In this document: in pieces, positions 8,265 through 14,610 of the stretch | How the letters are laid out: each line of letters opens with the position of its first letter | How positions within the stretch are numbered: the first letter of the stretch is position 1 | Assembly (NCBI GenBank): GCA_028872475.1 | Contig: JAQYMQ010000004.1 | Span: 44,482 to 108,481, forward strand | DNA: 64,000 nucleotides | Source of the DNA: Eubacteriales bacterium | Lineage (GTDB): Bacteria > Bacillota > Clostridia > Peptostreptococcales > Anaerovoracaceae | Reading direction: 5' to 3' | Made by a program: the position numbers and the translations under genes | Notes under the pieces: generated by a model | What the model saw: the letters and a program-made list of their open reading frames with translations, nothing else | The model's database searches: none | What the model was told of the DNA's origin: nothing

Positions 8265-10151
8265 TTATAAAACTTCAGCTATCTTATTCGCTGTAATAAT
8301 ACACTTCTCTTCACTGATAGATGCAACTGAAATCCTGATACCTTTCTTTAACGGAATAACAAACACTCCGTAACTTGCAAGCTTTTCAGCTACTTCCATA
8401 GAATTTTCACACTCTATACATGCAAAAAATCCTGAATTAAATGGAACCATAGGTAAGTTTAATTTCTTACATTCTTCTTCAAAAATTCTACCTCTTTTTA
8501 AAAGCATATCTCTAAATTCTGTTCTCTCTTGCTCAACAATTTTATACTTCGCACTATTGCTTGCAATATTAGCAATCATCTGTTGACCTGCTCTATTACA
8601 GTTAGACCAAGTATTTCTAGATGAATATTCACATACTCTCTTAAATTCCTCAGCAATAGCCTCTGTCTTTGCCATACACATCATTGCACCCGTTCTTGTA
8701 CCATAAGCTGCATATGTTTTAGAAGCACTATATCCAATTATAGGCAATATATTTTCATTTAATCTTTCAAGTTTAGGCAAGAAATGTCTAACTTCATCTG
8801 GATCACCCGCAAAATCTATATACGCTATGTCAACAAATAATGCAATTGGTACCTGATCAAGCTGCTCATCATTAAGAACATCAATTAGTGCATTCCAGTC
8901 ATCTTCATGCAAGCTATATCCTGTCGGATTATGTGCAGGTGTATTCATTAAAATAACTAAACTTTCCTGCTCCTTAGCAAGCTTATATATCTTTTCAGTT
9001 AAACCGCGCAAATTAAAATCATTATGTGCATCAAAAAGTTCAAAGGTATCTAGTTTTCTCTGCTGCTCCTCACAAAGACTCTTATACGGTCCCCAATACC
9101 AGTCACTAGTTAAAACCTTATCTCCCACTTTAGAATAATTAGAAATCGTATTTCTGATAGCTCCTGTACCACCTGGTGTAGCAACTACCTCCAAAAATCT
9201 TTCACTATTAAAGCCTCTTAGAATTTCATTCTTTACTGTTTCTTTATATGCTGGAATACCTCCAATTGGTGCATATTCAAAATAGTCACTTGCATCAAGT
9301 GTCTTCATCTCATCTAGTACACAATCCATAGTCGCAAGAGAACCAGAATCATCAAGTAAAACACCAATAGTTGCATTAACAACTGCATCTTTACCCTTTT
9401 CTTCTATCATTTCTTTTGCCCTTGTATTAAGTACAAAAGTAATATCCCCCTGCGGAATTTCCCTCGCATTTTGTTGTGCTAATATCATATTATCTCCCCC
9501 AAAAAATATTCTAAAATAATTTATATTCTTTCCTCTATTATGAAACTTTGTCTCGTATTCTGTAGGCACATTACCCTTAATATAATCAGAAGAATATAAA
9601 TCCCTAGTTATCTCATTTATCCTATACCCCAAAAAATTCAATTCATCTACACTAAATTCAAATAACGGATCATTATCTGTTTTAAATTGTAAAAATCCGT
9701 TTGGAGTAATGATTTTTCTGTATTTTTGTAAAAGTCTTCTGTGAGTCAATCTTCTTTTTTCATGTTTTTTCTTAGGCCATGGATCGCTAAAATTCAAGTA
9801 AATTCCATTCAACTCATCAGGCTTAAAATAATCACAAATATCTTCCATATACTCACTAATAAACACAATATTATCAAGTTCAAGGTCTCTAGCTTTTTCC
9901 ATAGCTAAGACCACTACACTCTCCTGACCTTCTAGCGCAATATAATTATTATCAGGATTATTTTTAGCGAGCGTTGTAATAAATCCACCTTTACCACAGC
10001 CAATTTCTAAAAATAGATCAGCATTTTTCTTTCCATTTTTTTCTTCAAAAAAAGCAGTCCACTTTCCTTTTAACGCCTTTGGATTATCCAAAAATTGCCT
10101 ACTAACATTATTCTTTCTTGTTTCAAGATTTTTTAATCTTCGCTGTCTCAT
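8265..10151 (-). CDS. trmB: TrmB tRNA (guanine-N7) methyltransferase joined in frame to a class I/II aminotransferase
   Basis: One uninterrupted 628-codon frame encodes two complete enzymes. Residues 1 to about 220 are TrmB, which methylates G46 of tRNA: SAM motif FLEIGCGKGGF, signature FSDPWPKKKHEKRRL and the usual end near YETKFHNRGKNI. From Met222 there is a full PLP aminotransferase of 407 residues: NTPAHNPTGYS, FVDIAYIDF, the PLP lysine in GYSASKTYAAYGTR and the carboxylate-binding Arg in GIRISVAS. There is no stop between them, but GGGGGAG lies five bases before the ATG of the aminotransferase (9488). It may therefore be a real fusion, two proteins from one frame, or both. The amino acid substrate is unclear; aspartate/aromatic type is likely. 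Confidence 0.88.
   Translation of the reverse strand: MRQRRLKNLETRKNNVSRQFLDNPKALKGKWTAFFEEKNGKKNADLFLEIGCGKGGFITTLAKNNPDNNYIALEGQESVVVLAMEKARDLELDNIVFISEYMEDICDYFKPDELNGIYLNFSDPWPKKKHEKRRLTHRRLLQKYRKIITPNGFLQFKTDNDPLFEFSVDELNFLGYRINEITRDLYSSDYIKGNVPTEYETKFHNRGKNINYFRIFFGGDNMILAQQNAREIPQGDITFVLNTRAKEMIEEKGKDAVVNATIGVLLDDSGSLATMDCVLDEMKTLDASDYFEYAPIGGIPAYKETVKNEILRGFNSERFLEVVATPGGTGAIRNTISNYSKVGDKVLTSDWYWGPYKSLCEEQQRKLDTFELFDAHNDFNLRGLTEKIYKLAKEQESLVILMNTPAHNPTGYSLHEDDWNALIDVLNDEQLDQVPIALFVDIAYIDFAGDPDEVRHFLPKLERLNENILPIIGYSASKTYAAYGTRTGAMMCMAKTEAIAEEFKRVCEYSSRNTWSNCNRAGQQMIANIASNSAKYKIVEQERTEFRDMLLKRGRIFEEECKKLNLPMVPFNSGFFACIECENSMEVAEKLASYGVFVIPLKKGIRISVASISEEKCIITANKIAEVL
9486..9500 (-). 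promoter_or_regulatory. Internal ribosome binding site before the aminotransferase ATG
   Basis: On the minus strand GGGGGAGATAAT precedes ATGATATTAGCA at the point where TrmB homology ends and aminotransferase homology begins. A strong site with proper spacing inside an open frame suggests that the aminotransferase is, or recently was, translated separately. Confidence 0.6.
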
Positions 10152-10222: not shown

Positions 10223-12139
10223 TTATTTTTTTGAATTTCTACTTGCTGACAATTTAACCTTGCTCCATAATTCAGACATAATCTTCTTTGTCTTTTCATT
10301 GTAGTTAAATACCTCGTCATTAGGATGATTCTCTCTTGGAATATACGCTCCTATCTCTGCAAACATTCCATCCTTTGATGACAATTCATCAAAAACTTCT
10401 TTGTTTGACGATGTATATCCAACAAAACTTGAATTTGACATTGCTGATTCATAATCTGAAACAAAATTCATAAATTCATAAGCTAGTTCTTTATTATCAG
10501 CATCTTTAGGTATAACCATCGCATCTGACCAAACGTTAGTACCACTCTCAGGAACATAAAATCCCATATTCTCATTTTCCTGCATTATATATACAGCATC
10601 TCCAGAATATACTATTCCTAAAGCTTTTCTACCCTGTGCCATATTATCGATTATTTCATCAGTAACAATTTCCGCATGTGTCTTGTTCACACTATCTAAA
10701 AGCCATTTATATGCTTCATCAAGCTCCTTCTGATTGCTCGTATTCATTGAATACCCCAAAGCTTTCAACGCCATCATAAATGAGTCTCTCTCTGAATCGT
10801 AGAGATATGTTTCACCTTTATATTTATCATCTCTAAAAATATTAAAGCCTTCTCGTTCCAGATCCTTCACATCCACTTTTGTCTTATCATAAACAATTCC
10901 AACATTGCCCCAAAAGTATGGAACGGAATAATCATTATTTGGATCATAAGGTAGGTTCTTTACAGAATCAAGAATATTATCAAACGCTGTAATCTTGGAT
11001 TTATCCAATTTTTGTATACGATTTTCTTTAATTAATCTCTCAATCATATAATCACTAGGTACTAAAACATCATATTTCTCGCCATTAACTATCTTGATAT
11101 ACATCTGTTCATTGGAATCAAAATTATCCATTATAACCTTAGCGCCAGTATATTTTTCAAAGGTCGGAATAACATCTTCACCCATATATTCTCCCCAATT
11201 ATATATATGTAATGTCTGCCCTTTATATTTACCTTCTCCACCACCAAGGGATATAAAGGAAAAAGATCCAATAAACACAACAAAAGCCGTAGCAAACGCA
11301 ATAGCTGAATACTTAATCTTCTTATTAATGCCAGCATATTCACCATTCTTTTTCTCAAGCTTTCTTCCTAAAACAGGTACAACATTCACTAATATTAAAC
11401 CTACCGCTATAACCAAAATTACAATTGTAGAAATCGCATTTATACTTGGATTTATACGTTTACTCATCGTATAAACCATTATACTAAGGTTCTTAATACC
11501 TCCACCCGTTGCAAAGTATGAAATTACAAAATCATCAAAAGACATTGTAAATGCAATCAAAGCACCGGCAAATATTCCAGGTGCAATCTGCGGCACAATA
11601 ACCTTTCTCATAGCCTGCCACGGAGTAGCGCCTAAATCTAAAGCTGCCTCAGCTAAGTTAGAATCTAGTGACGACAATTTTGGCATAATACTCAACACAA
11701 CATAAGGTATACAAAACGCAATATGCGCTAATACTAAAGTAAACATCCCCTTATTTATACTGAATGTCACAAACAATATCATCATAGAAATTGCCGTTAC
11801 AATCTCAGGATTCAATATAGGGAAGTCATTCATCTGCTTTACAATCATTCTTATTGACTTTCTTGATTGTGAAAGTCCTATTGCAGTAATTGTCCCTATA
11901 AACGTAGAAATCAAAGTTGCTATAATTGCGACAAAGATTGTCACCCAAAGAGATGTCATCATACCATTAGCCTGAAGCATCTTCTGGTACCACTGCATAC
12001 TAAATCCTGTAAAACTTGTCAATGATTTCGAGCTATTAAACGAAAATACAACTACATAAAATATAGGTAAATAGAAGAAAATCATCGTCAATATAAAAAT
12101 TGTTTTTCCAATCGGTCTTCTTTTTTTATCTAAATTCAT
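10223..12139 (-). CDS. potC: Spermidine/putrescine ABC transporter, fused permease (PotC) and binding protein (PotD)
   Basis: Residues 1 to about 265 are the PotC permease with six membrane segments and the EAA loop (EAALDLGATPWQAMRKVIVPQIAPG). A further membrane segment near 280-300 (SAIAFATAFVVFIGSFSFISL) leads into a complete PotD-type substrate-binding domain starting at LHIYNWGEYMGEDVIP and running to the end. The binding domain has no signal peptide or lipobox of its own; the extra helix would tether it outside the membrane to its permease. I start at the ATG nine bases inside the ORF track start, with AGGGTG upstream. It follows potB directly. PotD-like conserved residues support polyamine transport, but the exact ligand is inferred. 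Confidence 0.92.
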   Translation of the reverse strand: MNLDKKRRPIGKTIFILTMIFFYLPIFYVVVFSFNSSKSLTSFTGFSMQWYQKMLQANGMMTSLWVTIFVAIIATLISTFIGTITAIGLSQSRKSIRMIVKQMNDFPILNPEIVTAISMMILFVTFSINKGMFTLVLAHIAFCIPYVVLSIMPKLSSLDSNLAEAALDLGATPWQAMRKVIVPQIAPGIFAGALIAFTMSFDDFVISYFATGGGIKNLSIMVYTMSKRINPSINAISTIVILVIAVGLILVNVVPVLGRKLEKKNGEYAGINKKIKYSAIAFATAFVVFIGSFSFISLGGGEGKYKGQTLHIYNWGEYMGEDVIPTFEKYTGAKVIMDNFDSNEQMYIKIVNGEKYDVLVPSDYMIERLIKENRIQKLDKSKITAFDNILDSVKNLPYDPNNDYSVPYFWGNVGIVYDKTKVDVKDLEREGFNIFRDDKYKGETYLYDSERDSFMMALKALGYSMNTSNQKELDEAYKWLLDSVNKTHAEIVTDEIIDNMAQGRKALGIVYSGDAVYIMQENENMGFYVPESGTNVWSDAMVIPKDADNKELAYEFMNFVSDYESAMSNSSFVGYTSSNKEVFDELSSKDGMFAEIGAYIPRENHPNDEVFNYNEKTKKIMSELWSKVKLSASRNSKK

Positions 12140-12149
12140 CTTATTCACC

Positions 12150-12974
12150 CTAGTATGACTGCCTCTTTTCTAAATTTCTAACTGCATACATACTTATCAT
12201 CATTACAAGTGCAATAATAACAGCAATCGTGCTACCAAACGCCCATTCACCAACGTTAATAAACTGATTTTCTATTACATTTCCAATCATCATATACTTA
12301 CCACCACCTAGCATCTTCGGTATAAAGAACGAGCTTACACACGGCAAGAACACTAAAGAAATTCCGCTCAAAATACCAGGCACCGAAAGTGGTAATGTCA
12401 CCTTCATAAAAGTCATCTTATTGTCTGCACCAAGGTCTGCCGACGCCTCCAATAAAGAATTATCCATCTTCGCTAACGCACTGTTAATCTGTAATACCAT
12501 AAATGGCAAAAAATTATAAACCATCCCCAAGATAACTGCACCTTCAGTGTATAAAAGTGTAGACGGATCAAATCCAAGAAGCTTCAAGCTCTGCTGAGCC
12601 AGTCCACCATCAGATAATATACCTATCCAAGCATAGGTCCTAACTAACATATTTATCCACATCGGCACTGTCACAAGTAATACCAATGTATTTTGAATAC
12701 TCGGTTTACTTCTAGATATATAATATCCTATTGGATAACCAATAATTAAACATAATATTGTAGTCTTAACTGCTATAACTAGCGACCTAAATAATATAAC
12801 CAAGAAATCCGGGTCAGTAAAAAACTTTTTGTAATGTTCAAACGTAAAAGCAATACTTAATATTCCGTTCCCCTCTTTGGTAATAGAATAAATTACAATT
12901 AAAAGCATTGGAAGGAATATCATTAATGCTCCCCAAATTATATATGGTATTGCAAGTCTTGACATTGATTTCAT
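12150..12974 (-). CDS. potB: Spermidine/putrescine ABC transporter permease PotB
   Basis: Inner-membrane subunit of the polyamine importer: 274 residues, about six hydrophobic helices, and the conserved ATPase-contact loop LEASADLGADNKMTFMKVTLPLSVPGI. The ATG overlaps the potA stop by one base (TAATG), with AGGATGATAGG upstream, so potA and potB are translationally coupled. The next gene is the potC-potD fusion, giving a complete importer. Confidence 0.94.
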   Translation of the reverse strand: MKSMSRLAIPYIIWGALMIFLPMLLIVIYSITKEGNGILSIAFTFEHYKKFFTDPDFLVILFRSLVIAVKTTILCLIIGYPIGYYISRSKPSIQNTLVLLVTVPMWINMLVRTYAWIGILSDGGLAQQSLKLLGFDPSTLLYTEGAVILGMVYNFLPFMVLQINSALAKMDNSLLEASADLGADNKMTFMKVTLPLSVPGILSGISLVFLPCVSSFFIPKMLGGGKYMMIGNVIENQFINVGEWAFGSTIAVIIALVMMISMYAVRNLEKRQSY

Positions 12975-14551
12975 TAGCCTATCATCCTTCTCATAACATG
13001 AATATCTTCCGGATAAAACGTAAGTCCTATCTCTTTACCCTCTTCGACATAATCTGTAGTATTAATCTTAAATTCCCGACCTTCTGTAGTGAATGTAATT
13101 TTGTACTGGCCAAGCTCTATATTGTCCATATCAAAATCATAGTTTACATAAATGTCAATAGATTCTTCTTCGTCACTCAATCTCCAACCCTGAGCCCCTG
13201 CCCAAGTCTTAAGGTCGGTATCAATAGCAACTGCTTCTTGAACTTCTTCAACCGTCTTATAGAAATCAAATGCACTTACAGCTTCATCAGCTTTTCTATT
13301 AACAATGTATTTTTGATCAACTACATGAATAGTTCTCGTTATACTTGTACCTGATGCTGTGGAAAATGTAACATTATATTTACCAATCACTGGTTGTAAA
13401 TCATATTCTATCTTATGTATAGAAATATATTCATCTGCTTCTATTTCCCAAGCTTGTGCATCTGCTCTTGCAATTATCTCCTTATCATCTAATTCTTCCA
13501 TATCATCAATATCTAGATAAAAGTCGTTAGCAGAAATTTTTTCTTTTCCATCATCACTTGTAACTGCATGTTCTGCAATAACGTTCATATTAACTGTAAC
13601 GGATGTACCTTCAACTGTTTGCACTGTAACATCATAATGCATTCCCTTGAAGAATACATTGTCTACAATTCCAGTCATCTTTCCATCTTCTACATCAACT
13701 ATATCTATATCTTCAGGTCTGATAATTACATCAACTATCTCATTTGTACCAAAACCATGATCTACACATTCAAAAGCAATTTCATCAAATTCTACCAAAT
13801 AATCTTCTACCATCTTACCTGTAACGATATTGCTTTCACCAATAAATGATGCCACATACTTATTTTGTGGCTCATTATATATTTCTTCCGGCGTACCAAT
13901 CTGATATATACTCCCCTTATTCATTACAACAATCTTATCTGACATAGTAAGAGCTTCTTCTTGATCGTGCGTAACATATATAAATGTGATTCCTACTTCT
14001 TTTTGAATTTTTTTAAGTTCATATTGCATTTCCTGTCTAAGTTTTAAATCAAGTGCCCCTAGTGGCTCATCTAAAAGAAGTACCTTCGGCTCATTTACAA
14101 GAGCCCTTGCAATCGCAACTCTCTGTTGCTGTCCACCGGAAAGTGTCTTAATATCCTTCTTCTCAAATTCTTCCAATCCAATCAGCTTGAGCATCTTCAT
14201 TACTTTTTGTTCAATAACGTCTTTGCTCATTTTTTTAATATTCAAACCGAATGCTATATTGTCGTATACATTCATATGTGGGAATAAAGCATATTTTTGA
14301 AAAACTGTATTAACCTCTCTCTTATAAGGAGGTAATTCGCTAATATCTTCACCATTAAAGATAACACTACCTTCGCTGGCATCTAAAAATCCACCCAAAA
14401 TTCTTAGCAAAGTTGTCTTACCACAGCCACTCGGTCCAAGAAGAGTAACAAATTCGTTTTCATAAATATCTAAATTAATGCCTTTTAAGACTACATTGCC
14501 GTCAAATTCTTTTACAATATTTCTAAATGATATTAAAAGATTTTTGTCCAA
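12974..14551 (-). CDS. potA: Polyamine ABC transporter ATPase PotA with repeat insertion in the TOBE region
   Basis: ATP-binding subunit of the importer. Walker [10 protein letters not shown] (39-47), signature LSGGQQQR (137-144), Walker B VLLLDEP (157-163) and the D-loop are intact. PotA is normally about 350-380 residues; this one is about 525. The TOBE region begins near 275 (IIRPEDI) and its last strand is at the extreme C-terminus ([11 protein letters not shown]). Between them lie two modules (about 338-415 and 423-500), each with SAxDFY, a central AW/GW and an Ig-like YxVTFxTxxG strand. I start at the TTG followed by DKNLLISF, with GGAG upstream; the ORF track start 19 codons earlier is also TTG but lacks a site. 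Confidence 0.9.
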
Positions 14552-14610
14552 TTCACATTCTCCGTTCTCAACAAATTTTGATAAAAATATAATCAAATAT
14601 ACAAACAATA

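Follow-up and report, generated by a model that had tools for sequence, protein, structure and literature searches.

A single open frame in the window (the whole 64,000-nucleotide stretch of DNA analysed here) joins trmB to an aminotransferase (AT) gene, and it is a genuine in-frame gene fusion which has kept the start of its downstream partner, most likely giving both a TrmB-AT protein and a free AT from one frame. The frame lies at 8265..10151 on the minus strand and was read as 628 codons (628 amino acids) without an internal stop. Pfam recognised Methyltransf_4 in residues 45-210 (139 bits) and Aminotran_1_2 in residues 257-621 (129 bits). The TrmB part, a tRNA (guanine46-N7)-methyltransferase (residues 1-221; 9489..10151, minus strand), scored above the curated cut-offs of the NCBIfam models NF001080 (197.4 bits, cut-off 132) and TIGR00091 (154 bits, cut-off 112.65), its closest solved structures being 1yzh and 2fca/7nyb. 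The remainder (residues 222-628 plus the stop; 8265..9488, minus strand) is a class I/II PLP aminotransferase, which scored 128.8 bits against PF00155 (gathering score 19.7), covered positions 3-358 of the 361 in that profile and so is full length, and matched 3rq1 (E 2e-92) and 4emy (E 1.5e-86) in sequence and, with TMt of 0.94-0.95, in fold. Lysine K478 of the SASK motif (8718..8720, minus strand), the predicted PLP-binding residue by analogy with class I aminotransferases, aligned with a lysine in 33/33 fused proteins, and the other conserved residues of the class (the NPTG motif N408-P409-T410-G411, the D/Y pair D441 and Y444, and the C-terminal Arg R606) were likewise invariant across these 33. 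The AT part reached no NCBIfam equivalog cut-off, scoring 145 bits against the aromatic amino acid transaminase model PRK09257 (NF006719), for which the cut-off is 377. An AlphaFold2 model of the fused chain, built from the 33 fused sequences, was confident for both domains (mean pLDDT 89; pTM 0.68) and gave pLDDT values of 54-79 for the inter-domain linker at about residues 217-236 (9444..9503, minus strand) against about 90 in either domain. The linker is thus probably flexible, and the modelled chain reads as two whole enzymes joined by a short tether. That two full-length and unrelated enzymes are joined here with no stop between them, as was first proposed from a sequence-only reading, is therefore borne out by the frame itself and by the completeness of both domains in Pfam and NCBIfam.

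The same reading had placed a ribosome site and a start exactly at the seam, and both were found there in frame. On the minus strand the seam runs AAT TAT TTT AGA ATA TTT TTT GGG GGA GAT AAT ATG ATA (NYFRIFFGGDN-MI), and the peptide NYFRIFFGGDNMILAQQ spans the join. The Shine-Dalgarno (SD)-like GGGGGAG (9494..9500, minus strand; GGG GGA coding for Gly-Gly) stands 5 nt 5' of the junction ATG at codon 222 (9486..9488, minus strand), the proposed internal start of a free AT of 407 amino acids. With the long ORFs of the 64-kb window as the SD background for the host organism, an anti-SD duplex energy as strong as the one at this ATG (-8.4) was reached at just 8 of 427 internal ATGs in frame, and the median for the ORFs' first ATGs was weaker (-6.9). 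Beside the G5 of the SD is a T6 run (9501..9506, minus strand) in which a single-base indel would split the gene: with one base fewer TrmB ends in IFLGEII followed by a TGA which overlaps the ATG, and with one base more a TAA comes immediately 5' of the ATG, so that in either direction the fusion is one indel away from two separate genes.

This proximity raises the question of whether the window fusion reflects an error of sequencing or assembly in T6G5, the genuine genes being separate and coupled through ATGA. Besides the ease with which a one-base change puts a stop right at the ATG, the congeners G001 and G003 carry stops at the seam, their trmB and AT genes overlapping or adjacent and in different frames. 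It had been suggested that relatives with a stop, one base different from the sequence here, would speak against a fusion; stops do occur in G001, G003 and dozens more relatives, yet a one-base error is not what they reveal, because in G002 (59% identity) the two genes are joined in the same frame through different nucleotides, and there are four other independent fusions, one of them old and diversified. G002 is another species and another assembly, its linker is of equal length and it has no such T6 run, and fused genes are common across the family, also in assemblies of 1-3 contigs (such as G217, G218 and G008). We consider an error very improbable. A stop-codon or sequencing artefact was accordingly rejected on the evidence of the congener G002 and of the fusions that arose independently elsewhere, programmed slippage at T6G5 was rejected as a conserved feature as the run is absent from G002, and the idea that the fusion is unique to the window's genome was rejected as many more full-length fused frames were found in the family search (351 genomes). 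No full-length fused match was found outside the family in order-wide (395 genomes) and class-wide (391 genomes) samples.

To describe the history of the genuine fusion, 158 AT loci (nine of them outgroups) were classed: 33 were fused, 53 had adjacent genes with a stop, 7 had adjacent genes with a longer gap and 31 had about 800-1900 nt between trmB and the AT gene, the remaining loci having no trmB nearby or being cut by contig ends. On a tree of TrmB and AT together, for which the TrmB active-site motif was masked, the fused state required 6 changes, all of them forced by well-supported branches. A tree of AT only required 7, as it set G122 apart from an old fused clade in which the TrmB+AT tree places it; the TrmB+AT tree was built with a simpler model and a quick search but rests on more columns and was preferred for that reason. 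The simplest reading of the six changes is five gains of the fusion (in the window's genus, in G169, in G287, in G106 and in the one old clade, which has 28 fused members) and one re-splitting. The re-splitting concerns L119, L122 and L126, which lie inside the old clade, have a stop at the seam again with the AT intact, and look like natural fission of what had been a fused gene. Several members of g14, the genus with the old fusion, also carry a stand-alone AT that falls on a different branch of the tree, in some cases besides the fused copy (L226, L228, L235, L236, L239, L240, L243 and L253).

An alternative is that the fusion protein alone is made, the ATG and GGGGGAG being relics of a once separate gene. 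In the window itself the junction SD was no stronger than its synonymous alternatives (z +0.32), as the relic explanation would have it; with the fusion confined to the window's own genome (G000) and G002, decay may hardly have had time to set in, and equally the fusion may be too recent to demonstrate selection on the SD. The wider set of fused genes is more informative. An in-frame linker ATG was present in 32/33 of them against 10.9 expected from equal-length windows of the same genes, the SD energies at these ATGs (median -8.65) were far stronger than those of 322 control ATGs in the same frames (-2.9), with -10.4 at unfused AT starts, and the observed SD beat random synonymous recoding in 29 of 32 cases (mean z -0.97, against +0.06 for control ATGs), although these statistics are only indicative since the fused sequences share ancestry and are not independent. 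In the old clade the linkers (7-32 codons) have turned over to a median identity of 25%, yet the ATG is still there in 27/28 and an SD energy of -7 or lower in 20/28, compared to 3.4% of 262 control ATGs. The choice of nucleotides at the SD thus exceeds what the encoded residues require, which argues against relics. One sub-branch of the old clade does have weak SD sites, and L134 within the clade has no linker ATG, which fits with relics in those members and suggests that the need for a free AT is not universal. The re-split genomes have an intact AT, as expected if the internal start was working before the stop returned. We therefore regard relics as an unlikely explanation overall. An SD and start inside the open frame, in frame and kept in relatives, is what a gene with two products should show, and this was seen for 32/33 fused genes; from the sequences, it is most likely that the fusion protein and a free AT are both made from the one frame, and the earlier suggestion that one mRNA may give both products gains support.

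The TrmB half differs sharply between the window and the old fused clade. In E. coli TrmB, alanine at D144, H151, R154, R155, D180, T217 or E220 reduces activity to below 10% (PMC10130221). Alignment showed that the window TrmB holds the equivalents of all seven, and the residue table that its catalytic motif DPWPKKKHEKRR (D123-R134, containing the equivalents of E. coli D144, H151, R154 and R155; 9750..9785, minus strand) is intact. In the old clade, by comparison, the H151 equivalent was found in 0/31 loci (L090, L095, L097-L102, L104-L106, L110, L112, L114, L117-L123, L126-L131, L133, L134, L138 and L234), being replaced by W, T, S, Y or L, and it was found in 86/86 readable unfused relatives outside the clade; a motif count for L038-L081 was set aside, as those loci had been fetched with the peptide WPKKKHEK and were biased. 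W146 was lost in 28 and R154 in 14 of the old-clade loci, while D144, R155, D180, T217 and E220 were kept, so that the motif DPWPKxRHxKRRL has become DPLPKNYWYKRRL, DPHPKNYTYKKRL, DPLPKNYSAKKRL, DPWQKPSYYRHRL and others. Nearly all the fused genomes that were searched have the fused protein as their single TrmB above the family cut-off; a second TrmB is present in G169, and in G006, G007 and G080 the sole TrmB falls just short of the cut-off. Decay of TrmB in the old clade was rejected, as the ratio of TrmB to AT distances is 0.98 there and 1.24 in unfused loci; measured against AT, the divergence of TrmB has not sped up, and the change looks like remodelling. The tree placed the fusion and the loss of H151 on the same stem branch, and cause and effect of the two are thus inseparable. 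Going by these residues, we tentatively suggest, while thinking it rather unlikely, that the sole TrmB of most old-clade bacteria may act on a new RNA target or by a new chemistry and perhaps be controlled by the attached AT, the window lineage being at an early unmodified stage of the same path.

How trmB came to lie beside this AT gene can be followed in the unfused relatives. Of 29 inserted loci that were checked, 28 had an antisense gene between the two, coding for an M23 peptidase for which SpoIIQ was the best named model, at a score below that model's cut-off; these SpoIIQ-like inserts are found in INSERT-class loci among L141-L175 and L203-L241, from spore-forming relatives. In clostridia, LytM-domain proteins which are not orthologous to SpoIIQ take its place, SpoIVA is universal among spore-forming bacilli and clostridia, and sporulation is easily lost (Galperin et al., PMC3533761). 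With spoIVA used as the marker of sporulation, a match was obtained in 23/24 insert-bearing genomes (21 of them over the cut-off) and in 0/56 fused or adjacent genomes, which ties the adjacency of trmB and the AT gene to loss of sporulation. The insert-bearing genome without a spoIVA match is G345, and its locus (L154) is the sole one of the 29 without a SpoIIQ-like gene, having instead a 231-amino-acid ORF on the same strand. In G029 (G029:C1:599961-601435) spoIVA is in two adjacent pieces, which may be an early loss of sporulation or an assembly error. A search of the residual gaps of adjacent loci for SpoIIQ remnants gave none that were convincing, and the ancestral order of the genes is deduced by parsimony and from the spore-forming relatives; most likely, sporulation loss deleted the spacer gene and left trmB and the AT gene head to tail. 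The antisense SpoIIQ-like gene, as it tracks spoIVA, might also serve to mark the loss of sporulation in the family.

The pairing of a tRNA modification enzyme with amino acid metabolism had at first been singled out as unusual, and it could be that the fusion was selected because the two enzymes cooperate, for example by channelling or by coupling the amino-acid state to tRNA methylation. The same pair has after all been fused five times independently, and the old fused clade has diversified with its TrmB, measured against AT, evolving at no higher rate than that of unfused relatives. We know of no metabolic link between TrmB and this AT, however, three genomes have split the pair again, and loss of spoIIQ yields an adjacency that allows repeated fusion without any shared function. 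Adjacency from loss of the spacer, followed by one in-frame loss of a stop, is a sufficient explanation of the pairing, and chance adjacency after sporulation gene loss accounts for it better than a shared pathway does; selection for cooperation is accordingly doubtful, and we give it little weight.

The sequence of events that we favour would begin with an ancestor in which an antisense SpoIIQ-like sporulation gene was flanked by trmB and the AT gene. Loss of sporulation would have removed the SpoIIQ-like gene and brought trmB and the AT gene end to end, and in some lineages the trmB stop would then have been lost and the frames joined. In the window organism, ribosomes initiating at the trmB ATG would make the 628-residue TrmB-AT, its two complete folds held together by a short, flexible linker, while other ribosomes would use the junction ATG, through GGGGGAG, to make free AT, and both enzymes would be active. 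Class I aminotransferases are dimers, so that mixed dimers of TrmB-AT and AT would be expected to form, with zero, one or two TrmB domains.

Two further genes near the fusion were observed on the minus strand. Directly upstream (10223-12148), a PotC-like permease and a PotD-like substrate-binding protein share one 641-amino-acid frame, a known arrangement (compare NF043073), and at 12974-14608 there is a PotA ATPase of 544 amino acids with a long C-terminal stretch beyond the first TOBE part, in which there are two similar-looking segments.

Gene fusions and internal starts are both known kinds of arrangement. Among the papers searched, none joined trmB, gene fusion and aminotransferase, and we came across no description of TrmB paired with AT, of a connection between this pair and the loss of sporulation, or of the altered old-clade TrmB. 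What the living relatives offer is a natural series, from a sporulation spacer through its deletion to abutting or overlapping genes, then to a fused frame and, once, to re-splitting, which suggests that fusion need not end the independent expression of the second gene. The fused genes also provide a set for direct testing of internal initiation, and the altered active site of the old-clade TrmB poses a testable question, namely whether m7G46 is still present in these bacteria, and how.

Compared with the free-standing TrmB of Bacillus subtilis (2fca/7nyb) and Streptococcus pneumoniae (1yzh), the window protein has the whole domain in common and keeps the catalytic motif and the residues important in E. 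coli, but its chain continues into a C-terminal aminotransferase. The AT half is a near full-length match in sequence and fold to 3rq1 of Veillonella parvula and 4emy of Anaerococcus prevotii, with the PLP lysine kept, whereas those proteins are free-standing and are named by class only. The bifunctional PrmC-TrmB (NF002421) is likewise a fusion containing TrmB, but with another partner and with TrmB at the C-terminus; the window protein has no PrmC domain and scored at most 54 bits against NF002421, in the TrmB half only, where the cut-off is 567. The bacterial genes for IF2 and ClpB have in-frame internal starts and give two products, and the logic is the same here, with one frame, two N-termini and an internal SD and start (the start being putative in the window gene). 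The window gene differs in that its predicted shorter product would be a complete and different enzyme, in an arrangement born of gene fusion.
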